A stretch of 64,000 nt of DNA from Porphyridium purpureum (taxonomy: Eukaryota; Rhodophyta; Bangiophyceae; Porphyridiales; Porphyridiaceae). The number at the start of each line of letters is the position of its first letter. Position 1 is the first letter of the stretch. Under the pieces are notes generated by a model, which was given only the letters and a program-made list of their open reading frames with translations, had not been told where the DNA came from and searched no databases. Shown here one piece after another: positions 271-49,800 of this stretch. Where the stretch lies: positions 682,001 through 746,000 of the forward strand of contig VRMN01000004.1 of NCBI GenBank assembly GCA_008690995.1. The letters run 5' to 3'. The position numbers and the translations under genes were made by a program.

Positions 271-705
271 TGTGTGAACTTCGTGCAAATGGGTCGAGCC
301 GAACGCACGCGAATGAACCTGCTGATGAGGAACAGGGCGCGCCAGAGCTTGCTGACGTGAAAGAGGGCGCACAGTAGTGTCGTGGCCCACAATGATTCGG
401 TTGTGCGACCGTCCAGGGGGTCGTGACGGGAACGGACGCAGAGTTTTTTGCGCCTGAGGGGGCGTTTTCTCGAGCGGACCGTTTTGGACAGAAAGGTATA
501 TAAAGTACGTTCGACAGGTGTTAGATTAGAGTGAGCCAAAATAAAGAGGGCACCGTTGACGAAGAAATAAGAGCCTACAAGGTGTTGAGAAGCTGCACAA
601 CGGTCCTTTGGCAGCAAAGAAGAACAGGAGGTGAGCACCGTGTGTGTACAGTCGACGGACTGTGACACGCGGTGCACACAGAGTGGGAAGGCGTTTCCTA
701 CAACA
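271..705 (+). repeat. 5' LTR of copia element
   Basis: Direct repeat of 5037-5471, offset by 4766 bp, beginning TGTGTGAACT and ending CTACAACA (TG...CA). It contains a TATA box, TATATAAA, at 497-504 and an AATAAA poly(A) signal near 539, the expected order for an LTR promoter followed by an RNA end signal. Confidence 0.92.
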
Positions 706-733
706 ATCGCGATTTAAAGGGAAACGGAAGGAC

Positions 734-14205: not shown

Positions 14206-17200
14206 TCATTCGGAGTCAGACTCCTCGATAATTTTCAACAAGTCTGGCTCAGAATCGGACGCCGGCATTTCGTCGGGTACTTCTTCATCATTTTCCCCTG
14301 CCATGTAGTCTTCGCGTCCATAGTATGGCTTCAGATGCTGGATCGGAAAAACATCATGACAAGCCACACCCTCAGGCAAAACCACTCGGTAAGCATGCGA
14401 GCTTACCTTCTCAATGACAGGCACCGGACCAAGAAACTTTGGTGCCTCCAAATCACTCTTGTTCGGCCGCAGTTGCGGCGCCGTGACCAACACTTGATCA
14501 CCAACTTGAAACTCCCGGGCATCCTTGCTTCGATCGAAGAACTTCTGCATTCTCCCCTGGGCTTCGATCAAATTGTCGCGGACTTCTTCATGGACTTTGC
14601 ACAGGCGAAACCAGTGCTCCGCCATGTCCTTCGTCTGTCCGTCGCGCGCAGGCCTCCACCCTTCGCTCGGTGGAAACCAAGGATCCCTTCCATATACCAC
14701 TTTGAACGGCGCGAATCCAGTGGCACTGCTTGGTGCAGAGTTGTACGCAAACTCGTACAACGGCAAGTCTCGCACCCAGCCACTATTCGTCGCCATCAAC
14801 TTGAGCATTTCCCGAATCACGCGGTTCACTCGCTCAGTTTGGCCATCTGTCTGCGGGTGGTTGGCAGTAGACATTGCCAACTTCATGCCCACCCGCTTGC
14901 TCAGCTGCTGCCAAAAGGTGGACGTGAACAGCGGATCTCGGTCAGATACAATTGACTTGGGGTATCCGAAACGGCTCACGACGTGCTTCACGAACAAGTC
15001 AGCACAACGCTTTGCTGTCAAGTCCTTGCGCGTCGGGATGAACAGCGCCATCTTCGAATAGCGATCCACCACAGTCATGATTGCATCACAGCTGCCTTCG
15101 CTCCGAGGCAGCTCTGTCACAAAGTCCATCGAGATGTCGACCCAAGGTCCTTCTGGGATCGACAAGGGCTTCAGCTTTCCAAACGACCGATTCTCTGACT
15201 TTGTCACTTGGCATGCGTGACAAGTCTTCACAAAACGGCTCACGTCTCGCTTCATCTTTGGCCAGTAGAAGCGAGTGATCAAAGATGCATACGTCGTGTC
15301 TGCCCCACGGTGTCCTGCTGTCGGGATATCGTGGTGGAGTTGCATGACACGCTCTCTGAACTTCCTCGGCACGCAAACGCGATTCCTCAAGTACAAGAGC
15401 CCAGCTTCGGTTCGAAAACCCTGGTGGGTCGGTAAGTCTTCCATCAAAGTACCCAAGTCTGGGTCACTCGAGTACGAACCCACGAATGCCTGGAAACCCG
15501 CACCAAATTCATCACACCGAACTTGGTACTCTAGCGCGTGCAACTCTGGCTTCCTCGACAAAGCATCGGCTACCACGTTCGACTTTCCCTTCACATAGTC
15601 GATCGTGATGTCAAACTCGGCTAAAAAGTCCAACCACCGTGCCTGCCGGCCATTCAGCTCCTTCTGCGTCATCAGATGTTTCAACGCCTCATGATCCGTA
15701 TGAAGCACAAACTTTGCCCCGTACAGATAAGGTCGAAACTCTCGCAGACAGTGAATGACGGCCATGAGCTCACCTTCGTAGCTGCTGTACCTGGTCTCTC
15801 GGTCCAGCAGCTTACTCGACGTAAACGCGACCGGTCTGCCTTCCTGTGCCAGCCATCCCCCCACCGCGACTTCAGAGCGGTCCGTGTACACCTCAAATGG
15901 CTTTTCAGGGTCTGGCAAGGCCAACACCGGCGCTTCCGTCAACATCCCGACAATCTTCTTGAAGGCCGACTTGCCTTCATCTCCCAGTTCGATCAGCTGC
16001 TTCTTCGACTTTGCGCTCTGCAACAGCGAAGTCAGCGGCGCCACGACGGTAGAGTATCCTTTGACAAACCTGCGAAACCAGTTTGTCATTCCCAAAAAGG
16101 ATCTCAACTCCGTCACCGTCTTTGGCACTGGCCAATCTCTCAAAGCTTCCACCTTCCGTGGATCCATCTTCACGCAACCGTTGCCGACAATGTTCCCCAG
16201 GTATTCGACTTCAGAAACGAAGAAGCTGCACTTCTTGCGCTTCAACCGATACCCCGCCCTTTGCAAGCGCGACAACACTTCCTTCAGGACCTCGCCGTGC
16301 GACTGCCGATCCTTGGTGAAGACCAAAATATCGTCCAAGTAGACAATGACGGTCTTGTCCAGCAGATCTGCAAACAGCTCGTTCATGGCCCTCTGAAAAG
16401 TTGCCGGCGCGTTGCAAAGACCAAACGGCATCACACGGAACTCGAACTGTCCGTACCTGGTCTGGAACGCGGTCTTCGGCACGTCCTCTCCCCGAACACG
16501 CAACTGGTGGTATCCCGATGCCAAATCCAACTTTGAAAAACAATGAGCTGCTCCCAGTCGATCCAGCAACTCATCCATGTTCGGCAAGGGATACCGGTCC
16601 TTCACGGTTGCGTCGTTCAACGCCCGATAATCCACGCACATCCTCATGCTGCCGTCTTTCTTCTTCACGAACAGCACGGGTGCTCCAAAGGGGCTCTGAC
16701 TCGGCTGGACGAATCCCTTGTCCAGCAAGTCATCCAAAGTCTCTCGGAGGACTTTCAACTCCGCAGGGCTCAGTCGGTAGACCCTGCCCACTCTCACAGG
16801 CTTCTCATCTTTCAGCCTAATCACATGCTCCACTGTTCGGCTCTCAGGCAGCCCACGTGGCTCCTCGAACAGATTTTCAAAATCATTGAGCATCTTCTTC
16901 ACAGAGTCATCTCCTTTGGGCTCCACTGAACAGGGCTCCTCCCTTCCTTTCAGCACGCCGAGGTAGCACTCTTCTACCTCCTGACTCTTCAACAGCCGAC
17001 GGAGCTCTTTCCGCGGCACCAGCATCTGCGTCATGCTCCAGGCCTTCTTCTCTCCGTAGGCCAACATGCCAGACTGCCAATCAATCACTGGGTTCTCCCG
17101 CTTCAGCCACTCCATGCCCAAGATTGCGTCTTGTCCCGCAATCCGGCAAATGGCAAAGTTAGCGGCCCCTGAGTACCCATCGCTCAGTTCAAACTTGACA

Positions 17201-17697
17201 TTGGAGACTTCTCCGGCTGTCTCCAATACAGACCCGTCTGCCAGGGTCACATGATCTCTCTTCCACGACGCCTTCCGCTTCAGGCCGTCGGATTTCTGCA
17301 CAAAGTCCACGCTCATAAAGTTGTCCGTCGCGCCACTGTCAATCAAAAACGTGGCCTCTCCGTCGGACTTGTGCACTTTTCCTCGAACTCGAAGAAGCAT
17401 GGCAGCTCCCATCCCTCCAAGTTCCTTGATCACGGGCTGATTTTCGCTCGAGTTTCGCCCACGAGGTTTCGGACAGCCAGACCTTGGCTTACCAAGGCCA
17501 CCACAGCGGTCTCCATTGCCGCCCCTAGAGGTCTCGTAACGTCTGCGAGCCTCCTTTCCCTCTGACTGTCCGAGGAACCTCTCTGCTCGAGCTCCTAGTT
17601 TTTTGACTCCAGCGAGTCTCCCTCCAGCTGCTGGATAGTCTTCCTTGCCTCGGGACACGTCCTGGCGATGTGCCCCGGCTTTCCACAATTCCAGCAC
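14206..17697 (-). CDS. Gypsy Pol polyprotein
   Basis: 1163-codon frame that overlaps the end of gag by about 100 bp in another frame, the usual arrangement when Pol is made by recoding. Order seen: aspartic protease with DSGA (FLIDSGATDNF); reverse transcriptase with YLDD (near nt 16335); RNase H (near nt 15890); integrase zinc finger (H..H..CHAC, about nt 15200-15350); integrase core with the SIVSDRDPLF and HPQTDGQTERVNR segments; and a C-terminal tail without a chromodomain (QHLKPYYG, acidic end). The absent chromodomain and the short LTRs separate it from the element at 5639-12872. Confidence 0.92.
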   Translation of the reverse strand: MLELWKAGAHRQDVSRGKEDYPAAGGRLAGVKKLGARAERFLGQSEGKEARRRYETSRGGNGDRCGGLGKPRSGCPKPRGRNSSENQPVIKELGGMGAAMLLRVRGKVHKSDGEATFLIDSGATDNFMSVDFVQKSDGLKRKASWKRDHVTLADGSVLETAGEVSNVKFELSDGYSGAANFAICRIAGQDAILGMEWLKRENPVIDWQSGMLAYGEKKAWSMTQMLVPRKELRRLLKSQEVEECYLGVLKGREEPCSVEPKGDDSVKKMLNDFENLFEEPRGLPESRTVEHVIRLKDEKPVRVGRVYRLSPAELKVLRETLDDLLDKGFVQPSQSPFGAPVLFVKKKDGSMRMCVDYRALNDATVKDRYPLPNMDELLDRLGAAHCFSKLDLASGYHQLRVRGEDVPKTAFQTRYGQFEFRVMPFGLCNAPATFQRAMNELFADLLDKTVIVYLDDILVFTKDRQSHGEVLKEVLSRLQRAGYRLKRKKCSFFVSEVEYLGNIVGNGCVKMDPRKVEALRDWPVPKTVTELRSFLGMTNWFRRFVKGYSTVVAPLTSLLQSAKSKKQLIELGDEGKSAFKKIVGMLTEAPVLALPDPEKPFEVYTDRSEVAVGGWLAQEGRPVAFTSSKLLDRETRYSSYEGELMAVIHCLREFRPYLYGAKFVLHTDHEALKHLMTQKELNGRQARWLDFLAEFDITIDYVKGKSNVVADALSRKPELHALEYQVRCDEFGAGFQAFVGSYSSDPDLGTLMEDLPTHQGFRTEAGLLYLRNRVCVPRKFRERVMQLHHDIPTAGHRGADTTYASLITRFYWPKMKRDVSRFVKTCHACQVTKSENRSFGKLKPLSIPEGPWVDISMDFVTELPRSEGSCDAIMTVVDRYSKMALFIPTRKDLTAKRCADLFVKHVVSRFGYPKSIVSDRDPLFTSTFWQQLSKRVGMKLAMSTANHPQTDGQTERVNRVIREMLKLMATNSGWVRDLPLYEFAYNSAPSSATGFAPFKVVYGRDPWFPPSEGWRPARDGQTKDMAEHWFRLCKVHEEVRDNLIEAQGRMQKFFDRSKDAREFQVGDQVLVTAPQLRPNKSDLEAPKFLGPVPVIEKVSSHAYRVVLPEGVACHDVFPIQHLKPYYGREDYMAGENDEEVPDEMPASDSEPDLLKIIEESDSE

Positions 17698-20050: not shown

Positions 20051-22099
20051 CTACTGCGCAACGCCAATCCCTTCGAGCGTGTCCAAGGACGCTTTCCATT
20101 GCCGACCGCTGGCGGCGTCATCGGCGGCTATTTGCACGCCCTCCAGGTCGTACACAGGCTCCGACTGCGCGGCTAGCGAGGTTTGGTACATCATCTCGGC
20201 AGAACCAAACATGCTGAACACCCGCGCCTTGCGTGCGAACAGCGAGATCGTCGGAAACACTTCCAAGCAACCTACAAATGTGTATTCAACGTCCGACACC
20301 TTCTGCCCATCAATAAAAATGCCAATCTTGGCGTGTAAGTGCGACCATGACGCGCTCGGAGATCTACTAGACCCATCCGTTTCCCGCCCAGACCCTTCAG
20401 CCATGTGCCCTTCTCCGTTTTGTGTCAGGGATTCTGGAGATTCCTCTTGCACTTGCTGTTGTTCTTGATGCTCCTGTTTCACATGCCGCCCCGGGTTTTC
20501 CGCTGTCGGATCATGCTCACCAGCGTTGGCTTCTCTGTCTCCGCTGCTTGCAACCTCTGCCTCCCCATGGTCCCCTTCATGCTGTGCTTCCCCGACTTCA
20601 AAGGAATCGTTAGTGATGTTATCCTGTGCCTTGCTCTCTTCCGGTGTCCTAATTTCCACAAGCACACCGATGCAAAAATTCTTCAGCTGATCCATGAGGC
20701 CGTCACCAAACGTCGCCCACGATTCCTTGCCATCTATGGTCCGAATCAGGTTTCCAGAAGACGAAATTCCAATCGAATTCGGGCGTGTACCACACAGACA
20801 GCTCAATGGTAGCTCTCGTGTCGACAATCCAAAGCACAAGCCGCCACCCGCTGCGGGCTGGATTGCAAACATCTCAAAGTAGGTCCGTCGGCCAGGCAGA
20901 GCCGGAAGCATGGCGCGAACAGACTTGTAGAGCCCCCGTTCTTGCGTTCGGAATGCGCAGTGATTCGAGTCAGTGAGCATGATGCCTTCATGACATTCGT
21001 CTGGGTTGAAGCCGAGCCGTGGGGTCGACAGGCGCGAGCGCACGGAAAAGGCAAGCTCGACTGGATCACGAAGCGACGCCGCGCGGCTTGGCGCAGTGCG
21101 GGGCATCGACTCATCGTTCCCTTGGTTACGAAGCGCCGCGGCGTACGCGGCATCCTGGTAGAGCTGTAGCGCCGGGTCGAAGCGCATCGCCCTCTCCCGA
21201 AAATCCTCGACGGACGACACGCGTGAAATCATACCAGGCTCTTCGGGCTCGTTGGGCTTTAGCTGCATCTCGGCCAGCTTACTCACACTTACCACGGTCA
21301 CATCAAAGGGCCGATCGCTAATCGGGTTGTGCATGTACGCCTTTTGGAAATTTTGGCGCTGCGGCGAGCACCGCTCGACGTATTTGGTGGCCACACCCGT
21401 TGTCTTTTGAAAATTCTTGGTGGTGCCCGGTGTCATGAATCCGTGGAAAGACGAGGCTGACGCCCCGTTTGAACCGTCCGGCCCCGTTCCGCCCGTCCGG
21501 TCGTCCTTGTCGTTACTGTTATCGCCACTATATCGTTGCGACGGTTCGCGCTTCTGCTGGTCAATCTGCTCTTGCAAGCTCGCGCAGAAACATGTCGAGT
21601 CACCACACGACTCGAGTTGCACGAGCAGCGTGTTGTTGATGATACCGCGCTCGTCGTAGGTGACGGGTTGATCTGGTGCGTGTCGCCACACATTGTCTAT
21701 GATAAATTTGTACTGATACTCGCCTGGAGGTAATGACTTGACCGCAATCCACACCTCGTTGCCCTCCGTTGTGGTGGCGAGTGTGAGTGGAATCGTAACC
21801 TCCCACGAGTTGAACGTGCCAGTAACGAAGGCAGACGAGGCCTTTTGTGTCCAGCAAAACGTAACATCTGTGACAAGTGTTGCGGGAAAGTTCTGAACGG
21901 CATGGCCGACGCTTCGGCCGCCCTGGTCCTTTTGCTCCTCGGCCGACACAACGGAACCAATCCCGATGCCAATGTTTGCCGAAATGCGAGCGAAGGAGTC
22001 CAAGTTCTGATGCGAGACGGACCAAATCCCCGGCGTGGCCGGTGTCACACGTACATCCACCGTCGGCGTCGCCGCCGTGCCCGGCTCGGGCGGTGACAT
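20051..22099 (-). CDS. CBM48 (AMPK-beta-type glycogen-binding) + SPRY protein
   Basis: 682 residues from the ATG at 22099; an upstream TTG in the same frame was rejected. Residues about 77-162 form a CBM48/AMPK-beta glycogen-binding domain (VTFCWTQKASSAFVTGTFNSW, then GEYQYKFIIDNVWRH). The C-terminal half, about 385-655, resembles a SPRY domain: YFEMFAIQPAAGGGLCFGLS, SIGISSSGNLIR, IGIFIDGQKV, VFPTISLFARKA. A Gln/Glu-rich insert of about 100 residues splits it. The AMPK-beta C-terminal region that binds alpha and gamma subunits is not visible, so this is probably not a canonical AMPK beta subunit. In a red alga, whose starch is cytosolic, a role in bringing SPRY partners to starch is a reasonable inference. 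The middle linker looks disordered. Confidence 0.82.
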   Translation of the reverse strand: MSPPEPGTAATPTVDVRVTPATPGIWSVSHQNLDSFARISANIGIGIGSVVSAEEQKDQGGRSVGHAVQNFPATLVTDVTFCWTQKASSAFVTGTFNSWEVTIPLTLATTTEGNEVWIAVKSLPPGEYQYKFIIDNVWRHAPDQPVTYDERGIINNTLLVQLESCGDSTCFCASLQEQIDQQKREPSQRYSGDNSNDKDDRTGGTGPDGSNGASASSFHGFMTPGTTKNFQKTTGVATKYVERCSPQRQNFQKAYMHNPISDRPFDVTVVSVSKLAEMQLKPNEPEEPGMISRVSSVEDFRERAMRFDPALQLYQDAAYAAALRNQGNDESMPRTAPSRAASLRDPVELAFSVRSRLSTPRLGFNPDECHEGIMLTDSNHCAFRTQERGLYKSVRAMLPALPGRRTYFEMFAIQPAAGGGLCFGLSTRELPLSCLCGTRPNSIGISSSGNLIRTIDGKESWATFGDGLMDQLKNFCIGVLVEIRTPEESKAQDNITNDSFEVGEAQHEGDHGEAEVASSGDREANAGEHDPTAENPGRHVKQEHQEQQQVQEESPESLTQNGEGHMAEGSGRETDGSSRSPSASWSHLHAKIGIFIDGQKVSDVEYTFVGCLEVFPTISLFARKARVFSMFGSAEMMYQTSLAAQSEPVYDLEGVQIAADDAASGRQWKASLDTLEGIGVAQ

Positions 22100-23161
22100 C
22101 GTGATGACCCCACCAGCCAATTTTCCTCGTTTGCGTCCCTGGCTTCTTCTCCCCCTTCTTTCCTTTTCGTTCCCGTTGTTCTTTTGATACCTAGCCGACT
22201 AAACTTTCTCCGCCACCGCGAGCGCTCCTTCTGACGGTACCTATCCCCTCTTGGGTCCGAATCCACGCACGGCCCTGCTCGTCTTCTTCTTCTCACAACC
22301 GCCTCCGTCTCCGTCTTCACTTCCTTCTCCTCCCTCGCGCACAAAGAAACAAATCGCCTCTTCCACCGCACGGCCTCCGCCAGCACCAACAGCCACGTCC
22401 CAAAAATTGCTTCTTCCCAGTCACTCACCCACACACTCACCCACACACACACACACACACGTGCACACACGCGCACCAACTCGGGTCGCTTTGCTCAGCT
22501 CACAATACACACATGTCAACGCCACGTCCACGAACTTCTCTTGGCCCCTCTGTTCAAGTGCATGTGTGTTTCTCCGGAGACCCGGCTCTTGTCGCAGCAC
22601 GCGCGCTGCGTTCCCCTTTCGTCGCCGCTCCTCTGAGCGCAACACCACCACCACCACCGCCTACACCACCCCTTTCCTCCTCCCCCGCCCCCTCAGACAC
22701 ACACGTCAAACTTCTTTTTTATCGAAGCTTCTTTCCGCACGTAAAACTGAGCCGATTTCTCTTACAAAAACACGCCAACGCATAAAAGACCACAAAAAGG
22801 CGGAAAGTACAGTCGTTATTTTCGAAGCGGCCACAGTAGTGTTCAGTGCGTACAGCGCGAGAAGCACACGAAATCCAGCAAGGTACAGCGCAGTCACCGG
22901 GTTAAACCGGGCGATGCTGAACTTTGAACCGGTGAACCGGAAACGCGAAAAGCAAATGAACGAATGGAGAGCAGACAGAGAAAGAGAGTAGAGAGGGAGA
23001 GCGGCACAGCCGATGTGAGATGGTGGGCATTGTAATGGACACGTACCAATTAAAGTGTCTGGACGGATTCGTAGAAGAAGCCGGTGGAAAGGAAAAGCGC
23101 GGAGCGCGCTCCGTGGACGACATTGGATTGCGGGTCTTTTCTGACATGAGGCGCTGCTGCG
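22100..23161. promoter_or_regulatory. Intergenic region with promoter motifs upstream of the CBM48 gene
   Basis: About 1 kb without a believable gene. On the + strand it has a CA microsatellite (about 22437-22470) and pyrimidine-rich tracts. AGTACAGT is at 22806-22813, CGTACAGC near 22849 and GGTACAGC at 22882-22889. The near-palindrome CCGGGTTAAACCGGG is just after, near 22898. The GTACAG cluster is 700-790 bp from the ATG at 22099, farther than for other genes here, so a long leader or a missed gene is possible. Confidence 0.4.
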
Positions 23162-24862: not shown

Positions 24863-26398
24863 TCACACCGTGTCCTCATGATTGTCATCATGCTCGCCAT
24901 TCATCTTGATGTCTGTGATTGACACCGAAGGTATGATCCGAGGTCCCGTTGAGAACCAAGGATGTGCGAGCGCGTCCTCTGCGCGATACCGCGCCTCTAC
25001 GTCGAGATTCATGAGGTTTGCCATCAGGTCCTTACATTCGGGTGTAATTTCGTCCCACGGAGAGCCGTCAAGTGAATACTTACCTCGCACAATGAGCGCA
25101 TACGTCAACACCTCGTTCGTGGCGTCAAACGGAAGCTTGTGCGTGAGCATGTAGTACAAGAGCACCCCAGCGCTCCACAGATCGACTTTGCGCCCGTACG
25201 TCTTGTTTTGGATAATCTCGGGCGCAACAAACCCGCCTGACCCTGCCGTGCTCTTACGCAACGCCAAACTTGCACCCACAAGCTCATTCTCGAGCGCGCG
25301 GGCTGAGCCAAAGTCGGTGATTTTGACCGAATTCAGACTGCTCATCACGATATTTTTGGGCTTGATGTCACGGTGCGTGATCCCAGCTTCATGCAGGTGC
25401 TGAATACCTCTTAGCACCTGCTCAAAAACAAACTTGGCGGTTTTTTCGTTCATTTTCCCCTTAATCTTCAAATAATGAAACAAATCGCAGTCGGCGAGCT
25501 CCATGACGAAGAAAATGCGGTCCGGCTCCTCGTACACGTCTCGGATTGTTACAATATTGGGATGCTCGTCGAGCAGCGCCAGCACGGATATTTCCCGTCG
25601 CATATATATGCGCGACTTTTCGTCGAGCCGGTCGACTTCGAGCACCTTGACAGCAAACTTTTCTCTCGTCTTGCGGTCGGTGGCAATGAAAACCTTGGCG
25701 AACGCGCCTTCGCCAATTCGCTTGACCACCTTGTAGTCTGCCTTGAAGTTACTGACGCTGGAACACGTGAGTGTCTTGGCCCACTCATCCAGCGTGGCCT
25801 GCTCGGTGCCACGAAGCACCATCGGGCTGAGAGTGAAGGACGCGTCCTCATCGAGCTGCACGACCACACCCCGCGCGCCCACGTCCACGTGGACGACGGC
25901 GCCTACCATGCTGACCCTTTTCAGCGGCTTCTTGGCATCCACGACACCGCGCGAGTCCTGCTTGGCCTTGCCACTGATGCTTAGCTCGGCCACGCCACCG
26001 TGTCCATGTATGCTTGGGTCATGCAGCGGGTAGAGATGGAGCGCCTGTCCGTCGACGAGCGCGTAACGCAAATCCATCGCTTCGCGCTCCAGGCTCGCCG
26101 CGCGGTCGATGTCGAGCTTCCGCCCGCGCCCGAAGCGCAACAATGCGGTTGGAATCAGCTTCTTCTTGCCCTTCTGCGAGCCTTCGTCCTTGTTATCGTG
26201 CATCTTCACGACGCCCTCGATGTGCACGGCGGCATTCTCGTGCACGTACGTGCGGCTCGCCTCTGCGGCCGCCTTCTCCTCGCGATGCGCCGCGGCGTCC
26301 TCCTTTCCGTACCGCAACTTGAGCACCTGCTCGTGCGCGACCTGCTCAAACTGCTCCCAGAACGCCGCGTCCTCTCCAGCCGCACCCAGCAGCTCCAT
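24863..26398 (-). CDS. PH-domain CAMK-family Ser/Thr protein kinase
   Basis: 511 residues from the ATG at 26398; the frame opens further upstream at a GTG. Residues about 108-212 resemble a PH domain (LRYALVDGQALHLYPL to a closing DEWAKTL helix). Residues about 222-490 are a protein kinase: glycine loop IGEGAFAKV, ATP lysine in FAVKVLEV (about K251), HRD in ITHRDIKPKN (342-344), DFG (362-364), APE (392-394). All key residues are present, so it should be active. The sequence is CAMK-like; no autoinhibitory or EF-hand segment is visible. PH plus CAMK recalls animal protein kinase D, but no C1 domains are seen. A TATAAGG-like box and GGTACAGT lie 120-145 bp upstream. Confidence 0.9.
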   Translation of the reverse strand: MELLGAAGEDAAFWEQFEQVAHEQVLKLRYGKEDAAAHREEKAAAEASRTYVHENAAVHIEGVVKMHDNKDEGSQKGKKKLIPTALLRFGRGRKLDIDRAASLEREAMDLRYALVDGQALHLYPLHDPSIHGHGGVAELSISGKAKQDSRGVVDAKKPLKRVSMVGAVVHVDVGARGVVVQLDEDASFTLSPMVLRGTEQATLDEWAKTLTCSSVSNFKADYKVVKRIGEGAFAKVFIATDRKTREKFAVKVLEVDRLDEKSRIYMRREISVLALLDEHPNIVTIRDVYEEPDRIFFVMELADCDLFHYLKIKGKMNEKTAKFVFEQVLRGIQHLHEAGITHRDIKPKNIVMSSLNSVKITDFGSARALENELVGASLALRKSTAGSGGFVAPEIIQNKTYGRKVDLWSAGVLLYYMLTHKLPFDATNEVLTYALIVRGKYSLDGSPWDEITPECKDLMANLMNLDVEARYRAEDALAHPWFSTGPRIIPSVSITDIKMNGEHDDNHEDTV

Positions 26399-26516
26399 TT
26401 CCCGCAAAATCACCGCGCACTGCCCCCGACTTCGCACGCGCCTCTCCCAGTCGCTGTCGTTACGCCCTCCCACCGCGCGCTCACCTCACCCCACCGCCGT
26501 TTTTCGCACAGATTCA

Positions 26517-26545: not shown

Positions 26546-27763
26546 GCAGCAAGTGTACCCCGCGCCAGATCGGTCCACGGCCCAGCGTGCTCCCCAATAA
26601 CGCTGACGCGCGGCTGACTGACGCATCCAACCCCCCCCGAGCTGACTTTGAACTTTGGCCAGAGGCACAAACCGCGGCCTGGGTCTGTTCAGCTCGGCGC
26701 CGAGTCTGCACAGCGGCCATCGCGTGTCCGTGCCTACCGCGTGCCAGCTGCCAAAAGCCTTCACACGCTCAACCGTCTTGTGCGTCCGCATATGTTCGCG
26801 TCGCGTCGCAGCACTCCGCTTCCCATCGGCCTACGCACAACGTGAGACTCTGCGAACGCAGACTGTACCCCCTCACCGTCTTCCTTCTTTCGCAACCGAA
26901 CAGAGCGAAGTGTACCTCTATTTCGTATATAAAATTTGGGTGTGGCGTGTGCGAATCGGCTTTCGCGCAAGACAGCCAGTCGAGTGCAGTGAAACCGTTT
27001 GCGGGGTGTGATGAAAGCGGCCTTTCTGTGACTGCTTGTCGCGCATGCTTGCGTGGATTACCGGCAGTGCACGTCAACGAGTTGTCGTGTTCGCGCAAGG
27101 GGGCGGGGGGCGGGGGACGGGAAGAGCGCGTCACACCACCAAACGGCTACAAGAACAGAGGCGGCTGAATGGGACGGCGCGGAAAAATCACGCGGATCGC
27201 ATCTGGAAAGGCGCAGAAGGAACGCGCAACGTGCTTGCGATTTTGTGTGGGTTCGTGTCGGTGTGGACTTGTGCTGAAGTCGGTGGGCGTGTTGGGTGGT
27301 GTGCGGGAGGGGGAGAGAGGGGAAGAGGGTGGAGGGAGGGGAAGGAAAGGTGCTTCGGACGGGGATAGTGTGGTGGAGAGGGTGGGGTGGATGGGTGGGG
27401 GAGGATGCTGGTGTCGCATGCGGCAGTGATGGCGACTGAGGGGAGTAGGGCGGGGATGTTGGCCGCCGACGACGCCGGCAGGCGGCACAGAGGCTGAGGA
27501 CGGGCGTGCGCGACGATCGCGAGCGGCAGCCAGGCGCCGCGTCTGCCGCAGGTCGCGCGAGAGGCGTCAAGTTTCAGGGACTCAGTCTCAAGAAGGCGCC
27601 GTCCAGAGGCGAAGGCTCAGACGGCGAGGCTGACACCTTCACGAGCGAGCAGTCAGCAGCGTCTGCGCAGCCAAACGGGAGCGTGTTCGATCACGTGCGC
27701 TCCAGGGACAGCGAGGCGTGGAGCAAGGCGTGGAGCGAGGCACAAAAACCCAGCTCACATTGG
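26546..27763. promoter_or_regulatory. Divergent intergenic region between kinase and LRR/B'' genes
   Basis: Contains ACTGTACC at 26862-26869 and a + strand TATA box TATATAAAA at 26926-26934. The TATA box is the best promoter candidate for the following + strand gene. The part from about 27290 to 27420 is a G-rich, purine-biased tract. From 27449 on the frame of the next gene is already open, but without an ATG until 27764. Confidence 0.45.
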
Positions 27764-30733
27764 ATGGCGCGCGAAGCGAGAAGAAGCGAGCGCGGAACGC
27801 CAGCGCTCGCGCACAACTTTTACGCCATGCGATCCGCCACAGGCACACGCGGGAAAAGGTTGCGCCACGCGTGCTCCGTGCCTGAGCTGCGCGCGTGGAG
27901 GAAAGTCGCCGCCATCGACGGTGAGAGTGAAAGCGAACATACATGCGACGACTCTGCGAGAAAAATGTCGACCAGCTCCGATACAATGGACGAAGACGAT
28001 GAATCCTTCGCGCATCAGGGTCTCGGCCCGGCTGCCGCACTATTGCGTATGCAACAACCGGAGGATCGCGGGATTTGTGCTGCGCACGGATCGGCATCGT
28101 CACTATCTTCATCTCCTTGTTCCACAATGACAATGCACAGCTCAACGCAGCCATCATCTCCGGTATTTGCCGTTCACTACACAGACAGTAGCACGGAGCC
28201 CGTGCGCCAGCGCACATTGTACGTACCGGTGGCCAACAAGACATTGAGACTTGACGGGTTGGGCTTGGGAAGCGTGAAGCTTGAATCTGTTCTTATGAGC
28301 GTGTACGGCAGAGAATTGGAGGAAGTTTCCTTGGCCGCGAACGCAATATCCGAGCTCTCGCTCGGTGCGTGCACATCTTGGCCACCCGCGCTCCGCTCAT
28401 TGCACTTGCACGGCAATGAGCTCCGTGCGATCGACTTGGCTCCGCTGTCAGGGTGTCTGGCACTTACAGCGCTGTGGCTTCAGAATAATAAGATCAGGGT
28501 TATTGACCTGGGCCCGCTTCGAAGCTGCTCAAAGCTGAGCTCGCTGTACCTGGACAACAATGGGATCGATGACCAGAGCATCGATCTTGCGCCCTTGCGC
28601 GGTCTGACCAAGCTGCGCTCCCTTCGGTTACAAGGCAACAGATTGGCGGGTGCCCTCGATATTTCGCCACTCCTTGACGTGCCCGCGCTTGTATCGCTCA
28701 CCGTTTCAGAAGCAGTAACCCTCTACGTTGTAGCGCCGGCAGATGATTTTAATCTCGGCTCGGCTTCACTAAGTCCAGCACTCGCGAAACTCAAAACTCG
28801 CATTCAAATCGTGTCCCATCCCGACGAGCTTGCAATGCCGAGCGGTACAACTGTGCGGAAATGGGGAAGCAAAAACCCGTCTGATGAAGCGCTCGTCGAG
28901 AACAAGCAAATTGAGCAGATCCCTGCAGGTGAAGACCAGCCTATGGCTAAAGCTTTGTTGCTGAATTTCAGTGTGCGTGATTACTATCTGACACGTGATA
29001 TGATGCACTTGCATGCTCATTTCGAGTGCACAGGCGTGTCGGATGTCCTTTACGATAGTGAAGGGTTGAATGACTATGATATCATGTTCATCGACGTAAG
29101 CAAAGACCTGGAACTGGCATACAAGACACTGAAGGAAATTCGCATGATCTGTCCGTACGTGCCGGTTGTCTGCATAGGTGCCGACCTCGATCCCTTGAGT
29201 CGGTCAAAGCTGACCAAGCTTGGCGTGGATAGGATATTTGAAGAGGCTCTGACTGTGCCAGAGTCTTTGCAGCTGCGCAAGCTGGCCGAGGAGCGCTGGA
29301 ACTTGCGACTTGCCGGGCAGCGCGCGCGCGCCGCTCTTAGATCTGCGGCGGCTGTTCAGACAAAGCGCTCAAACTTGTCTGTGTCACCTTCTGACCTGCT
29401 CCTGCATCGTTCCTCGGTGCCAGCTCCTGAGCTCACTTCAACCCGTCCAGATGATCCGTTTTGTCACATTCGGCAGGGTCAGCTGCCGCCCTTATCGAGC
29501 CTGCGCCGCTCGCAGACGCTGCCGCAAGAGGCCATTGGTGGCCTCGGGCGGCAGGAGCTTGAAGAGCAAGCGCTCGAAAAGCTCCTTGCGCGATACGAAG
29601 GACATGTGCGCTTGGATCAATTTTCGCCTGTGACCACACTGTGCGGGCTGCCATCATGTGCCTCGCCACTCTTATTCAACGCAATCTTGCTCAGTAGCGG
29701 TTCGGTCTCGCGGGATGTCGTGACGTCGAAAATCTGTATGCGCTTTTGGTCGGAACAGCTCCGCTTCCGCACACAAGACCAGCGTCTCTTTGTTATTTTG
29801 GAGACTCTCGTGAAGAAGGCTGACGCCGATGCCGGGAACGAAACGGCGAAGGTGCCTCAACATCGAGTCAAGACGCACGAGGATGCGTTTCTCGTACTCG
29901 CGCAAGGTTTGATTCGTGGGTTTCGGCGGCAGTTGGGACCAGAGATGGATATTCTTCGCACGGTCGCCGCACTGCTGATGTACATTTGCTCGGGCAATAT
30001 ATCGATCGTGTCCGGCCGCATCACTGAGCGCGGCCTCGTGCGCTCAAGGTTCTGTCAGGGCCTGATTGCGGCCGAGTCTTACTTTTTTGACGGACTTTTT
30101 GTTGTACTGGATTCTGCACGACTACTGGAGTGCCGCTCGACCTTTGAAGCACTGGGCGGACGCGTATCGGACGATCCGGAGCTTGCATGCGGCCTGTACA
30201 TTGACAAGGTCGTAGAGTATTGTACAAAACGAGGCACGGTGATTCCACGTGGAGTGGCTGCCGTGTTTAGCTCGCGGTTGGGCCGTGGCTGGATGAGTAG
30301 CAACAGCCTCAGCAGCGAAGGCGATGTTGCGGAAAGGGAAGCCAAGAAGGAGGTGACGATGTCGCTCCCTGACTTTGCTCTGTTTTGGGCATCGATGCAA
30401 GACGTCGCACAATTCCCGTCGTTTGAGTATTGGTTCAGCGTGCTCGATTGCGACATGGATGGTTTTGTCTCGCGGGAGGATGCTCATCACTTTTACGCGG
30501 AAAAGTGTCGCCTACACAGCGCTCGTGGCGTGTTTTTGGCGGACTTTTCTTACTTGTGGAGCAGCCTCACGGACCTTGCATGCCCAGAAACAGAGCACCG
30601 GGGCTTTTCGTTGAAGCAATTGCGGCGCCTTCCACGTAAGCACCGTGGGTTTGTCATCCAGGCCCTGCTCTGGTTTGACGACGGGAACGCTGTCGTGGAT
30701 GTCAAGCGGAGCGGTAATTCGTTTCTTACGTGA
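27764..30733 (+). CDS. LRR + receiver-like domain + PP2A B''-type regulatory protein
   Basis: 989 residues from the first in-frame ATG. The same frame is open from 27449, so an upstream exon or a non-ATG start is possible. Leucine-rich repeats lie at about nt 28220-28740 (LRSLHLHGNELRAIDL, LTALWLQNNKIRVIDL, LSSLYLDNNGIDDQSIDL). A receiver-like fold follows at 28940-29300: KALLLNF, YDIMFIDVSKD, VPVVCIG, LGVDRIF. It keeps one Asp but lacks the acidic pocket and the usual Thr/Lys. The last third (29540-30700) resembles PP2A B'' (PR72/TON2) subunits: ALEKLLARYEG, SLPDFALFWASM, FEYWFSVLDCDMDGF. The EF-hand in that segment (DCDMDGFVSRED) is typical. Likely role: a PP2A targeting subunit whose LRR selects partners. 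The combination is unusual. Confidence 0.82.
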   Translation: MAREARRSERGTPALAHNFYAMRSATGTRGKRLRHACSVPELRAWRKVAAIDGESESEHTCDDSARKMSTSSDTMDEDDESFAHQGLGPAAALLRMQQPEDRGICAAHGSASSLSSSPCSTMTMHSSTQPSSPVFAVHYTDSSTEPVRQRTLYVPVANKTLRLDGLGLGSVKLESVLMSVYGRELEEVSLAANAISELSLGACTSWPPALRSLHLHGNELRAIDLAPLSGCLALTALWLQNNKIRVIDLGPLRSCSKLSSLYLDNNGIDDQSIDLAPLRGLTKLRSLRLQGNRLAGALDISPLLDVPALVSLTVSEAVTLYVVAPADDFNLGSASLSPALAKLKTRIQIVSHPDELAMPSGTTVRKWGSKNPSDEALVENKQIEQIPAGEDQPMAKALLLNFSVRDYYLTRDMMHLHAHFECTGVSDVLYDSEGLNDYDIMFIDVSKDLELAYKTLKEIRMICPYVPVVCIGADLDPLSRSKLTKLGVDRIFEEALTVPESLQLRKLAEERWNLRLAGQRARAALRSAAAVQTKRSNLSVSPSDLLLHRSSVPAPELTSTRPDDPFCHIRQGQLPPLSSLRRSQTLPQEAIGGLGRQELEEQALEKLLARYEGHVRLDQFSPVTTLCGLPSCASPLLFNAILLSSGSVSRDVVTSKICMRFWSEQLRFRTQDQRLFVILETLVKKADADAGNETAKVPQHRVKTHEDAFLVLAQGLIRGFRRQLGPEMDILRTVAALLMYICSGNISIVSGRITERGLVRSRFCQGLIAAESYFFDGLFVVLDSARLLECRSTFEALGGRVSDDPELACGLYIDKVVEYCTKRGTVIPRGVAAVFSSRLGRGWMSSNSLSSEGDVAEREAKKEVTMSLPDFALFWASMQDVAQFPSFEYWFSVLDCDMDGFVSREDAHHFYAEKCRLHSARGVFLADFSYLWSSLTDLACPETEHRGFSLKQLRRLPRKHRGFVIQALLWFDDGNAVVDVKRSGNSFLT

Positions 30734-30936: not shown

Positions 30937-31749
30937 CTAATCCAACTTGAGTTCAAACACTTCTTGTTCGACTCCAGTCTTCGATATCTTGGCGATCAAA
31001 ACCGAGTCACCAGTGTAAATGTCACGCTCCCCCGCCGATGAGAAGCAGTCTTTCACAAGCTCCACAGTCTGTTCAAGAGAGAGTTCTGCGACCGGTTGGC
31101 CGTCGTACATTTGCTTGCCGTCCACTTGGTTGTCCAAAACCGGTTGGATCAGGCTTTGCGACGACCCTGTACATACCACTTTAACCTTTTCATGCGAGCC
31201 AATTGCGTCGTAACCATAGCAAAACCCTTCTCCGTTCTCGTCTACGCCGCCCAACACGTTGAAGGTGTAGTACGGGAAGAAGCGCTTGTAGTACAATGTG
31301 TTGCTCAGCAGCTGCGATACGGCGCCAAGCGACATGTCCTTTCCGTGATTCTGGCGATACATATCCAGTCGGATGCGCAAGACCTTGTGCAAGGTGCAGG
31401 TATCGGCCTGCATGCCGGCAGTTGCAAGTACCACCTTGTCATTCAAGACGAGGTTCCTCGAGATCATGCGCGTGGGCACGGCAAAGCCCAACCCGAATCG
31501 GGTATCGCTGGCCACCACACAAAAGTCCTTGCCCGCGACGGCCACGACCGACCCACCATTATTCTGATACGGCTGGAACGACGCCTGCTTAGCCCCCGCG
31601 TGCGCGTCAAACGTCGGCAGCGCGTTGGTGCCCGTCGTCTCGACGCGGCCGCCCTGTCGCGAAAGACGATCAAACACGTCTGCATATCCCGGCCCCATCG
31701 CCGCCGGCAAGTGCGGCGCATTATGCCCTGGGCGTAGTAGCGGATCCAT
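30937..31749 (-). CDS. PSMB1: 20S proteasome subunit beta type-1 (beta-6)
   Basis: 270 residues from the ATG at 31749; an upstream in-frame GTG was rejected. The family core is clear: FQPYQNNGGSVVAVAGKDFC, VVASDTRFGLGFAVPTR, LSNTLYYKRFFPYYTFNVLGG, LLDNQV, LVKDCFSSAGERDIYTGD. Beta-6 is one of the non-catalytic beta subunits and lacks the active N-terminal Thr. The N-terminal leader before the core (about 65 residues) is longer than in animals and is probably a propeptide or extension. It lies head to head with APH-1, with 333 bp between start codons. Confidence 0.95.
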   Translation of the reverse strand: MDPLLRPGHNAPHLPAAMGPGYADVFDRLSRQGGRVETTGTNALPTFDAHAGAKQASFQPYQNNGGSVVAVAGKDFCVVASDTRFGLGFAVPTRMISRNLVLNDKVVLATAGMQADTCTLHKVLRIRLDMYRQNHGKDMSLGAVSQLLSNTLYYKRFFPYYTFNVLGGVDENGEGFCYGYDAIGSHEKVKVVCTGSSQSLIQPVLDNQVDGKQMYDGQPVAELSLEQTVELVKDCFSSAGERDIYTGDSVLIAKISKTGVEQEVFELKLD

Positions 31750-32082
31750 CCTTTCTCTTCCTCGTCGATCCACACAACAACACACCACTCACATCAACTC
31801 ACGCACGCTCCCCTTCCTTCCCTGCTTCCTCCTTCCTTCCCTCACCCACTCGCGCTCTGCCAGCGTTTCGGTCGCGGTTCAGTTCGAAACCGCATTACTG
31901 TACCTCCATCATTCAGAAACCACTGAACTTCACACTGTACTATAGGTTCAGTAAAGGTACAGTTATTGTGTGGCGTTGTTCCGAGTTCGGAGTGCAGAGC
32001 GGTGACAGCGAGCCAAGACGTGACGCATGTGTCTCTGTGGGAGTAGGGGTGGGACGCTGTCGTGAGCCGTTTGTGGTGAAGC
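31750..32082. promoter_or_regulatory. Divergent promoter for PSMB1 and APH-1
   Basis: Three GTAC-core motifs: ACTGTACC at 31897-31904 (148 bp before the PSMB1 start), ACTGTACT at 31934-31941, and GGTACAGT at 31956-31963 (120 bp before the APH-1 start). A CTATAGG between the last two may serve as a weak TATA box. Confidence 0.55.
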
Positions 32083-32826
32083 ATGGAGACCGAGCAGAAC
32101 AATCCGCTGCTGGTATCGGTCGGATGCCTGTTTCTCTCGCTCAGCGCGACGCTGATATGGGGTGGATACGTGATCATGCCACGGCCGCACCTATTTATTG
32201 TCGCAACCATGGCCGCGTTCTTCTACTGTCTTGGTCAGATGCTGGCCGCCGGCTGGTGGTTTGCCATTCCGCCGCTCAAGCAGGAGTTTGCGTGGGTGCT
32301 CTTTAGTACGGTGACCATCCAAGAGGGTATTCGATGGGCTATGTTTGCGCTTTTCAATTGGATGAAGGGTTATGGCGAAGGGGTCAAGGCGTTTCTTCGT
32401 GTGGGCGCTGTGAATGGCTTGCTCACTGGTTTTGCCGTGGGTGCCGGATATGGCCTCATGAGCGTCTTGCTGAGCTATACTTCTATTGTTGGCGACAATT
32501 ACTGGTTCGACCAGTCCATCTACATGCCCAACTGCCCGGAAATCAACTTTTTCGTGGCCGGCGCCGCCTTTGCGCTCGCCTATTCCATAATGCACATGGC
32601 TCTAGGCGTGCTGGCGTGGTCTATGTATGATACCAAAAACTATGTCGGTATCTTTTTCACGTATGCGTGGCACCTGGGTATCTCGATGGCGTCGATCGGC
32701 AACACCAATCGAGGAGGCTGCGTATACACACTCGGAATCGTTTATGGGTTGGTAGTATTGCTATCGCTGTGTGCTCTAGCATTCTCCATTCGGTTTGTGA
32801 AAATGAGTAAGCAAGTCGATGCCTAG
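32083..32826 (+). CDS. APH1: Gamma-secretase subunit APH-1
   Basis: 247 residues, about the usual APH-1 length, with seven hydrophobic segments. Conserved features: QEGIRWAMFALFNWM (family QExxR motif); a glycine-rich fourth membrane segment (NGLLTGFAVGAGYGLMS, the GxxxG packing motif); CPEINFF; and one conserved His in each of two later helices (IMHMALG, YAWHLGIS). APH-1 scaffolds the presenilin/nicastrin/PEN-2 intramembrane protease in endomembranes. Its presence implies a gamma-secretase complex in this organism; the other subunits are not in the window. Confidence 0.93.
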   Translation: METEQNNPLLVSVGCLFLSLSATLIWGGYVIMPRPHLFIVATMAAFFYCLGQMLAAGWWFAIPPLKQEFAWVLFSTVTIQEGIRWAMFALFNWMKGYGEGVKAFLRVGAVNGLLTGFAVGAGYGLMSVLLSYTSIVGDNYWFDQSIYMPNCPEINFFVAGAAFALAYSIMHMALGVLAWSMYDTKNYVGIFFTYAWHLGISMASIGNTNRGGCVYTLGIVYGLVVLLSLCALAFSIRFVKMSKQVDA

Positions 32827-33280: not shown

Positions 33281-34540
33281 TCAGCTCCCTTCCCCTGCAG
33301 CGACTGTGGAGATAATCCACTGTTCACCGTGCTCAGCTATATGCATAACAACAATACAGGCTGCTTGCTCCTTCGCGAGCTTCTTGGTTGTTCCCGCCGC
33401 ACGTGCCAATTCAACTCCATTGAAAATCATGCTCATGACAAATGTTGGACGATGAGTCTGACCGTCTTGCGAAATCATTTCGAACTCTGGAATTCTACCA
33501 AGAAGCTTTCTGGTGATCTCGTTAACGTATGCGAGCGGGTGTCTGCCTTTGCACACGCTGGCAACAACTGCTTCGTTAACCGCCATCTCCTTCGGCTCGG
33601 ATGCTTTCATAGGGAGATTTCCCGCTTCGAGGCCCTGCATATACTCTGTCGCGGCAGCGTCGATGGCCTGCCGCTTGGTCGACCCCATGGCCGTGGCGAG
33701 TACTTGACCATCAATCACCAATTTGGCACAAAAGGTTGGGCTGTGGGCCGGGCCACCAATCTGCTGCGTTTCCCACTCGAGACAGACACGCGAACGGCTA
33801 AACATTTCCTGTACACGGCTTCTGGCATCGCACTGCAGATCACGCAACGGTAGGGCGTCAACGCGTGTCTTCAACCATCCGCTCACGGTTTGCTTCGTTT
33901 TCTCAAAGCCCTGATCAAAGTACATGCAACCAATGATCGCCTCAAGCACGTCGCCCATGATAGCGTTTCGCGCTCTCACCAGCTGATTGTCGCTGTCGTG
34001 ATTATTCATAAAGTCTTCCCCGGCCATAATGCCACCGGAGATCTCTAATTCGAGTGCCAAGTCAGTGAGGGCCTCGGCGCGACACAGTTTCGCAAGGCCT
34101 AAAGTGAGCCATCGCTCATTGAAGTGATGCCAATCGTCTTCTGGGCCAGAATTCCGTGATAAGCATTGATGGGCATGTCTTGTCAACTCATCCAAGATCA
34201 CCGTGCGTAGCACTGCGTCCCCCATACACTCGAGATTTACATAACATTGCCTCTCGCGAGGTATCACGTCGATCCAAACCGGGTGTGTCCAAGCGGACGA
34301 GTGCGTGAAGGCTTGTAGCAACAGTTCACGCTTCTCGAAGCAAAAATGAGGCGCCAGCCTGGCTTCAAACCGTGCGATACACTCCCCTTCGCGCGGGAAG
34401 TCAGCCATGATGACGGCCCAGTCTCGGGGTATTGATCCCGGCGGGACTCGCCTCTCAGTTTCGGACACCAAGGTGTAGCTGCCTCTTTCACATCTTGGAC
34501 GCAGCGCACCCGACGGGTTGCCAGCTCCACTATTCTCCAT
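33281..34540 (-). CDS. Ribonuclease III with two dsRNA-binding domains
   Basis: 419 residues, ATG start. The RNase III domain spans about 54-225: signature NLECMGDAVL with metal ligands E104 and D108, and GDVLEAIIGCMYFDQGF with D197 and E200. All four catalytic acids are therefore present. Two double-stranded-RNA-binding domains follow: about 238-304 (PTFCAKLVIDGQVLATAMGS, TKRQAIDAAATEYM) and 335-402 (HPLAYVNEI, TKKLAKEQAACIVV). A single RNase III domain with two dsRBDs differs from Dicer (two RNase III domains plus PAZ) and resembles plant RTL enzymes. rRNA or snoRNA processing, or small-RNA work, are possible roles. No transit peptide is obvious. Confidence 0.9.
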   Translation of the reverse strand: MENSGAGNPSGALRPRCERGSYTLVSETERRVPPGSIPRDWAVIMADFPREGECIARFEARLAPHFCFEKRELLLQAFTHSSAWTHPVWIDVIPRERQCYVNLECMGDAVLRTVILDELTRHAHQCLSRNSGPEDDWHHFNERWLTLGLAKLCRAEALTDLALELEISGGIMAGEDFMNNHDSDNQLVRARNAIMGDVLEAIIGCMYFDQGFEKTKQTVSGWLKTRVDALPLRDLQCDARSRVQEMFSRSRVCLEWETQQIGGPAHSPTFCAKLVIDGQVLATAMGSTKRQAIDAAATEYMQGLEAGNLPMKASEPKEMAVNEAVVASVCKGRHPLAYVNEITRKLLGRIPEFEMISQDGQTHRPTFVMSMIFNGVELARAAGTTKKLAKEQAACIVVMHIAEHGEQWIISTVAAGEGS

Positions 34541-46800: not shown

Positions 46801-49800
46801 ATGGCAGGCGATTCTCGGTCGCGCGCGCTCAGTACGGGCTCCGACGATCAGTCCTTTTTTTCGATGCGCTCGTCCATGGGGAGCAGGCGCAGGAGTATAG
46901 GCACGCCCAGGGCGCAGCAGCAGGACTCGCAGCATTCCACAGCGCCGGTTCATCAGCCCGTGGTACATACTTCTCAGACAGGGCTCGGACCTCCTTCGGA
47001 AATGCAATCGGACGCGCATTCACCGCTGTTTCGCGTACACTCGCCAAGAAGGGAATGGAAAATGATGAGGAGTCTCCAATCCAGTCAGAAGCGAAGCATG
47101 CCGCACGCAGATGAATCGATGAACCACCGCGAGCAGGGAGCGCGACAGCAGTCCGTCCCGCAGGCGCAAGGCTCGCCTCGAAAGGGGGGGTCTAAAGGCT
47201 TTACGAACCTGATCCCCAAGTCATCTTTTGGATGGACTTCCAGAGAAAAGCAATCACACCAGCACCAGACAACATCGCCAGGTGTTGGTGCAGCAGAGGC
47301 CTCATTTGCATCGCGCGGCGGTCTGCTGGACCGAAGCGGCCGCGGTAATGTTCACGCAGCTAGCGTTGCGCCACTGGAAGCAGCACTCGACTCATCTGAC
47401 TCAGAAAACGAAATTCTACCGTTCGGGCCGGCGCGTTCACTGTCACCACCTGGCGCGGGACTTGCGAGAATGCGGTCGACCGAAACGACATCTGACGAAG
47501 ACAACGATGACGACGAATTTCTAGATTCATACCGGGATGCGCAGAACGAAACCCAAGTCATCGGTGTGCTTGCGGATCCAGATGCGGTCAAAGAGGAGTG
47601 GGGCGATGACTTTGTGCTCGAGTCCGATACTCTGCTGGACGGAAACGCCCTCTCGGTTACACACGCTCCCAGCAGCACGACTGGTCACGCCGGCTCAGCT
47701 TCGTTACCATTGGCCAGGCAAAGTGGTAAGAGACATGATGTGACGTCATTGAGCGCCACAACGAGCACAAGTAGCTTGGAAGCGTTGATCCATCCCGTCT
47801 CGAAGTCATTAGCGTCTTCGGATCCGCATTCCACAGACTCTCTGCAGGATGTCGCGCGCAAGATCCTGGAATGCTTGAAATCATCCAAGCCAAGTGAATC
47901 TCTGCCATCACCGCGGTCGTCACAGTTGGATAAGATTTCCTTGGCTCCCACAGACCAAGACGAATCGCGGCTGTCAAGTTTGCCATTTTCGCATCCAGTC
48001 CAGGAGGCGGCTCCGGAGGAAGCGTACTCAGTACGTGAATCATCCTCCGTGTCACCAGAGGACGCTGCGACTAGGAATTTTGGTCTTGTGCGGGCGTTTA
48101 GTGACATTGGCGACGAAGTGAAACGATTCGTGAGCATGACGCTGACACGCGGAAGTACGGCCTTGACGGGCGCGCATTTAGGCAATGACAGTAGTGCCCG
48201 CATTGCGCACGGTGCTCTAGATACTGCGCTTATTGGACCAGAGCCCTACGGTGACGCACGCGTGTTTGAATCCTTGGATATTGCAGCGGCTGGTATTGGG
48301 CTTGATATGTTTGGCGACATGGCTGTTGAGTCACTGTGCTCCTTCGTTTCAAAGCACAGAATCCGCTTGGTGTCTCCATCCGAGTTTTGCAGCCCTGCCG
48401 TATACGGCCACGCATGCAGTGTGCACAAGCCATTCCTTTTGGAAGCACTTGCAAATCACGCCACCACTGCTGGCGAAAGCACACGTTCCGAGCAAGATTG
48501 GAACGCGGAGCGCACCTTTTCGAACCTCATCGAGAACGAGTGCGTTGAGCGCACGCACTTTCTGTGCGAGCTGGAGCATGACGATTCAATTCAGTGTTCG
48601 TCACTTGATAATATGCTCACAATTTTCTCTTGGGAAATCTGCGCTGCCAGGAATCTGGTGCTCCGGGACAAGTGCCCGCGTGCCGCCAGAAGTACGGAGA
48701 CTGGTATGAGTGCCGCGGTTTCCGCATTCGGACATGGCCGCGGGCTTGCGGCGGCGCATTTACTGTCAGAAAGTCTGACCTTAAAGCAAAGCGGGCTGGT
48801 GGACAAGGCGCGAGTTGTTATGGTGCGCGCTTTGCTCGAAATTGCGCCATCCGTTCCTTGCCTAGGAGTGACGGACGTCAGCACTAAGGGTGAGAGTAAG
48901 GCACAATGCGTGTTCCAACCCATTGAACGTGAATTAATGAGCAGAATCGACTACAAGGACGTGCTCACCGCGGTTATGCTTCTGTGGGAGTTTGGGCTTT
49001 TGGAGCGGGAAAGCAGTACGGATCGTGTTTCACAGGCAGTATTATACTGGCGCGTTGGCCTTGCGCTGTGCTCAGAATGTTGGCCACAATCATCATTGGA
49101 GCGCTCACGAGACGCTCGCAGTACCATATGCCAGCTCGACGTAGAAGCACACAAAATTTGGAGCGTCGCTCTTTCTCGCGAGTCCGAATTTCAGACAAGG
49201 AAGGATGACACCTTTGTGTGGCCCAAGTTTTGGAGCCTTAATTTTAGTCTTGCGCTGATAAGCACGGTCATGGACGCGGGTCAGGGTGAAGGCGCAGGTT
49301 TGGGTTCGAGCTTGGGCATGAGTCCAATTCCAAGTCCAAGTCCAAGTCGAGATGCGGCCAGTGTCCCGTTGCAGTTCGAAACTGCGTTTAAGCTCGGTGT
49401 AAGTGCTCTGCATTTAATATTTGGAAATCTCATGATCGGCATGACCGAATACGGGTCGGACGCGGCGGTGAGTGTCTCCCATGTAGCGCCGTATCCAATC
49501 TCGAAAACGATTGCGCTGCTGTCGAAGATGACCGAAGCGGCACTTCAAGTCGGGGCGTTGCACTTTGGGACGCGATGCTCCCGTTGGCTTTTTGAGCTGG
49601 GCACGGCTCTTTTAAATGCCCCACTGCAAATTGCTGCCGCGAAGACTATGGATATGTTTGCCGCTGTCATGGTGTTGCAGCGTGGTTTGCCGTCCGAGGA
49701 GAGTTGTTCTCATTCGCCGGTCATGCTTGTCGAGCGCTTACGCGCCGCCCGGATCCGAATGTCGCGTGGCCGCGACATGAATGACGCTGGAAATGATGAG

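Follow-up and report, generated by a model that had tools for sequence, protein, structure and literature searches.

Leucine-rich-repeat (LRR) domains serve protein phosphatases in SDS22, SHOC2 and PHLPP, a likeness to the protein described here. To our knowledge, these proteins either work with PP1 or have a PP2C-type domain attached, and they have neither a B'' nor a receiver part.

Among the B'' subunits of PP2A, PR70 is described as two calcineurin-B-like domains that bind calcium at EF5 and EF7 (PMC4090178). A short hydrophobic motif upstream of the core (residues 125-129) is reported to contact the A subunit, and the core without the hydrophobic patch to bind A weakly (PMC4090178). In algae, a B''-type subunit is known from Ectocarpus as BASELESS, for which the domains described are two EF-hands, alongside a disordered region, and no others (PMC10112911).

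Receiver domains that have departed from phosphotransfer form another group. Pseudo-receivers are defined as receivers that lack any of the five pocket residues, and they are described as acting by being covalently modified, by forming multimers or by binding ligands (PMC12632262). According to the same source, known examples frequently use alpha4-beta5-alpha5 to dimerise, or else bind ligands (PMC12632262). Bacterial atypical response regulators and plant PRRs resemble the domain reported below in combining a CheY fold with lost phosphotransfer residues. In the descriptions available, however, pseudo-receivers occur in DNA-binding regulators, histidine kinases, clock proteins or a yeast kinase, and none with a PP2A subunit. 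Across the titles and abstract openings of the literature searched, no fusion of a PP2A subunit with a receiver or an LRR was found.

Here we describe a gene of the red alga Porphyridium purpureum, contained in an analysed stretch of 64,000 nucleotides (the window), whose product joins an LRR domain, a receiver-like domain and a B''-like domain. The parts are of known kinds, while their combination appears to be new.

Gene structure and domain organization

The gene lies on contig C11 of the 22.2-Mb P. purpureum genome, and its features are collected in Table 1. From the first ATG of the main exon (27764) the frame runs for 989 residues to the stop codon at 30731-30733; in 200 mononucleotide shuffles of 27506-30733, stop-free runs reached at most 248 codons. 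The true start is putative because the first codon of the public model is a CTG in this sequence. Read from the ATG at 27764, the protein consists of a poorly conserved N-terminal part of 158 residues, the LRR domain, a linker, the receiver-like domain, a second linker and the B''-like domain. This agrees with the preliminary description, which had placed an LRR array, a receiver-like domain and a B''-like region on one chain; the LRR array is recognized by Pfam, and the order is the same in two paralogous groups.

The public record of the encoded protein reads 'Internalin-A [Porphyridium purpureum]', with 1124 residues and precomputed Pfam domains of the LRR kind only. True internalin identity was rejected (NCBIfam internalin_A, 33.7 bits vs a cut-off of 1600), and since this score is far below the cut-off, the name reflects generic LRR likeness.

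Table 1. Features of the fusion gene, in window coordinates.
Feature	Position	Strand	Evidence or remark
Annotated first coding exon, public model P0001	27165..27254	+	29 codons matched after CTG read as M
Implied intron (P0001)	27255..27448	+	Gap between two matching stretches; GT..AG ends
Main exon	27449..30733	+	Uninterrupted frame; 1094 P0001 codons matched, then TGA
Leucine-rich-repeat domain	28238..28705	+	Pfam LRR_8 E 2.4e-16, 59.7 bits vs cut-off 27
Pseudo-receiver (CheY fold)	28949..29311	+	Five-sequence profile and structure model
F-E-C-T-G, beta2 strand of receiver model	29021..29035	+	F, C and G invariant in 5/5
D444 codon, phospho-acceptor position	29093..29095	+	Alignment; Y, Q, Q, Q in relatives
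PP2A B''-like domain	29477..30730	+	phmmer vs PDB, hhalign, Foldseek
LPPLSSL, proposed counterpart of canonical IPPFYF hydrophobic motif	29483..29503	+	[IL]PPL in 5/5
First calcium site remnant (EF5 of PR70), non-competent	30143..30223	+	0/7 canonical-invariant columns common to five
Surviving EF-hand loop (EF7 of PR70), DCDMDGFVSRED	30446..30481	+	Asp at position 12

Other genes and mobile elements share the window. A protein kinase gene (24863-26473, minus strand; Pkinase E 8.7e-73) adjoins the fusion gene on the opposite strand. Further upstream, a frame of 689 aa (20051-22120, minus strand) carries an AMPK1_CBM glycogen-recognition domain and no further Pfam match at E 0.001. On the other side lie a proteasome subunit (30937-31788, minus strand) and, adjoining it, Aph-1, a gamma-secretase component (32083-32826, plus strand; E 1.3e-25). 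They are followed by a protein with an RNase III-like domain and dsRNA-binding motifs (33281-34540, minus strand; dsrm in two stretches, E 3.6e-18), an open frame of 3987 aa (46801-58764, plus strand) and an FH2 formin of 1070 aa (59922-63134, minus strand). Retroelement frames occupy 644-5143 (plus strand), 6935-10672 and 14206-17697 (both minus strand). One has RVT_2 and rve and is Ty1/copia-like; two are Ty3-like, with RVT_1, RNase H, integrase and protease, and one of these two includes a chromodomain.

Recurrence of the fusion

Five fused proteins were found, and all five have the three modules in the same order. A paralogue in the same genome, P0003 (G000:C1:2037116-2040724 including the stop, L010 617-4225; 1202 aa), is publicly named Internalin-A too. 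Two more, P0002 and P0004, come from the P. aerugineum MMETSP0313 set (taxid 2792), MMETSP being a transcriptome project, and P0005 is encoded by a metagenome contig of 4697 bases. LRR_8 exceeds its cut-off in all four relatives.

An uninterrupted frame, a paralogue on a different contig and an order repeated in both P. aerugineum proteins and the metagenome-contig protein make it extremely improbable that two or three adjacent genes have been read as one through an assembly or annotation error. Such an error would be in keeping with a public record that offers merely the name 'Internalin-A' and LRR domains, and with support that, in P. purpureum itself, comes from genomic sequence. The two-gene outcome that the preliminary description had allowed for is contradicted by the five same-order sequences.

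In a tree spanning the LRR to the C-terminus (912 columns), the window protein and P0002 are separated from P0003, P0004 and P0005 with 100/100 support. A tree of the B'' part alone, with the three unfused B'' proteins of the genome added, groups the five fused proteins together on a long branch (100/100). In the LRR-only tree the window branch is long (3.22) and the split of window protein and P0002 from the rest still receives 96/96, while by identity over the LRR alone the window protein is closest to P0003 (50%, vs 47% to P0002). We infer that the fusion is older than the duplication into two paralogous groups, and that this duplication preceded the divergence of P. purpureum and P. aerugineum.

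The window protein and its orthologue P0002 are 47% identical over 154 positions of the LRR, 50% over 121 of the receiver and 49% over 388 of the B'' part. Outside the modules, identity is 21% in the N-terminus (138 positions), 25% in the first linker (61) and 47% in the second (32). The corresponding values for P0003 and P0004 are 68, 51 and 56% in the three modules, 27% in the N-terminus and 31 and 40% in the linkers. The receiver is evidently constrained, since it is conserved like its neighbours in the first pair and somewhat less in the second.

A receiver fold without its phosphotransfer residues

Pfam Response_reg (PF00072) has no match in the window's own copy even at E 10. All four relatives do match, in every case below the cut-off of 30.2 bits (13 to 25.8 bits), with E values of 0.0034, 0.00082 and 1.3e-5 for segments of P0003, P0004 and P0005, and 0.12 for whole P0002. 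When a profile of the five receiver sequences was searched against the PDB, receiver domains ranked first (E 8.5e-6); the non-receiver entries among the best 60 of 143 matches (E <=10) were HisF (2.8e-4) and designed TIM barrels (from 4.4e-4). A structure model of the segment also adopts a CheY fold, and the earlier proposal of a receiver-like domain is borne out by these two results. Weak matches of receiver segments to other families were OKR_DC_1_N (E 0.0031 in P0004, 0.21 in P0005) and, in P0005, MCR_C (E 0.043) and FleQ (E 0.23). DNA polymerase IV (PRK01216; E 0.0061, 15.6 bits vs 339) and DNMK (E 0.18, far under its cut-off) were taken as chance matches.

With the CheY pocket positions placed by eye on the alignment, the DD, T and K residues of phosphotransfer are gone in all five proteins, and the domain is a pseudo-receiver by the definition cited above (PMC12632262). 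The preliminary description was right that most of the pocket is missing. Its single retained Asp is real in the window copy, D444, and is not general: the acceptor position holds Tyr in P0002 and Gln in the other three, so the retained residue says little on phosphorylation.

These same replacements, together with the loss of DD, T and K throughout, make it very unlikely that the Asp of the window copy accepts phosphate and thereby switches the subunit. Such a phosphorelay would draw on the Asp at the acceptor position and on reports that the chemistry can survive the loss of DD, T or K (PMC12632262). A kinase partner is conceivable as well, histidine kinases being possible in this genome because HATPase_c has 12 matches, 11 of them over the cut-off; HisKA has a single genome match, below its cut-off, which speaks against a relay. 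The strongest HATPase_c match (G000:C43:3272596-3272919, minus strand; E 4.0e-16) lies in a frame of 858 aa. A six-frame and exon-by-exon search of the genome found no ordinary receiver.

The only Cys invariant in all five receivers, C422 (29027-29029), lies in strand beta2, some 20 positions past the DD site. Three bacterial regulators are reported to have a redox-active Cys at DD+19 (PMC12632262). C422 is a possible redox or ligand site, which we offer as a lead only.

A divergent B''-like domain

Several comparisons relate the C-terminal module to B'' subunits. When PDB sequences were searched by phmmer with the last 418 residues as query, PR72 and PR70 were matched at E 1.3e-10 to 4.7e-10, and the best non-B'' protein at E 0.064. 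Alignment with the three unfused B'' proteins of the genome by hhalign gave 97.9% over 293 columns, and Foldseek placed PR70/PR72 at ranks 1-6. The structure models of this part are of low confidence (pLDDT 58-62); the best VIA Z was 10.9, with an rmsd of 13.6 A, which is little higher than the 8.3 of troponin C. The kinship with B'' that had been proposed for the C-terminus is upheld, as are the motif quoted for it, EYWFSVLDCDMDGF (30425-30466), and its EF-hand, the EF7 loop being kept.

Like PR70/PR72 (PPP2R3B/PPP2R3A), the fused protein has a tandem EF-hand core, aligned over its full length, a second calcium-binding EF-hand and, ahead of the core, a short I/L-P-P motif that is a candidate equivalent of theirs. 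In contrast to them, it is without one calcium site and many family-wide residues, and has gained the LRR and receiver. The three unfused proteins of the same genome, L001, L002 and L003, share a homologous core of about 290 columns. They differ in passing both EF-hand_13 and EF-hand_7; EF-hand_13 is unreported at E 10 in the window protein and in P0002-P0005. Neither an LRR nor a receiver was matched in the three at E 1 (in L002 over 910 residues, the sequence being truncated where the locus begins).

The extent of divergence was counted in an alignment of the five fused and three canonical B'' proteins, over eight marked segments, with invariance judged in the canonical three. Only 21 of 159 canonical-invariant columns are common to all five fused proteins. 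The first half of CBLD1 with the motif keeps 7/22, its second half 1/28 and the stretch to FW 0/23; towards the C-terminus, EF5 keeps 0/7, the stretch to EF7 3/24, EF7 7/15, EF8 3/25 and the tail 0/15. The segments from TPEFQ to YFSYEHFY..FW together with the C-terminal tail thus hold a single column of 66, and the WDRFA tail is lost in all five. EF7 retains its loop and EF5 is lost in every fused protein, which leaves one calcium site where B'' subunits have two. In simple sequence comparison, the strong likeness to B'' first described is confined to the surroundings of the last calcium-binding EF-hand, and the rest of the domain has diverged.

The canonical I[PA]PF position reads [IL]PPL in all five, 54-55 residues ahead of GLP (52, 159 and 70 in the canonical three). 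From its position, [IL]PPL is presumably the equivalent of the A-contacting motif at 125-129.

Because most canonical-invariant columns are gone (only 1/66 kept in the segments just named), contact with PP2A could be lost. The main alternative to a working subunit holds that the B''-descended region no longer binds PP2A and serves as an EF-hand scaffold linking partners of the LRR and the pseudo-receiver. It would account for the columns, EF5 site and WDRFA tail missing from all five and for the failure of all five to match EF-hand_13, and the three ordinary B'' proteins of the genome could then serve PP2A. It fits less well with a core that both the profile comparison and Foldseek match to PR70 from end to end, with a motif before CBLD1 that is partly kept in 5/5 and with the retention in EF7. 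We give this alternative a substantial probability, somewhat short of even. Judged from its residues, the protein is B''-derived and B''-like; full B'' membership is not claimed.

Possible function

At about even confidence, we favour a lineage-specific protein that descends from a PP2A regulatory subunit of the B'' type and has two extra N-terminal protein-binding modules. The B'' part would still sit on the PP2A scaffold roughly like PR70, and the LRR would pick a client or location. The pseudo-receiver could offer a docking or dimerisation surface for which phosphorylation is not needed, and the surviving EF-hand may tune stability or binding with Ca2+ or Mg2+. Candidates for the partners exist in the genome: a frame ending in SPDYFL for PP2A C, found by its tail and by eye, and a PR65-like A subunit (PPP2R1A-like_HEAT, 66.7 bits vs a cut-off of 27).

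This derivation from a B'' subunit appears consistent with the order in 5/5, the tree support, the conservation of the receiver, its CheY fold and the specific B'' match. In our assessment, the candidate A and C subunits, the [IL]PPL in all five and the precedent of dimerising or ligand-binding pseudo-receivers may be counted for it too. Counted against it are the unreported EF-hand_13, the 21/159 columns, the low-confidence B'' models and a receiver less conserved than the LRR between P0003 and P0004 (51% < 68%). As sequence evidence stands, it is plausible that fusion to an LRR and a receiver would provide a novel means of steering the phosphatase.

A bolder reading, which we consider speculative and rather unlikely, is a private Porphyridium class of PP2A holoenzyme. 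A receiver formerly of a two-component system, its phosphotransfer lost, would act as a direct sensor or docking switch, with the LRR choosing the substrate. Two-component machinery would thereby be connected straight to a eukaryotic Ser/Thr phosphatase. The switch might be driven by redox state or a ligand through the invariant Cys and the beta2 face, by analogy with CikA, KaiA and the Cys-regulated bacterial pseudo-receivers.

Implications

If PP2A is bound, the protein would show that folded input domains have been coupled in nature directly to a subunit of the PP2A type. It would also show a two-component module retained purely for binding, the genome search having found no ordinary receiver. 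If PP2A is not bound, a B'' scaffold has been put to another use, and its changes would reveal the B'' surfaces that PP2A requires. In both cases the fusion is masked by the public name 'Internalin-A'.
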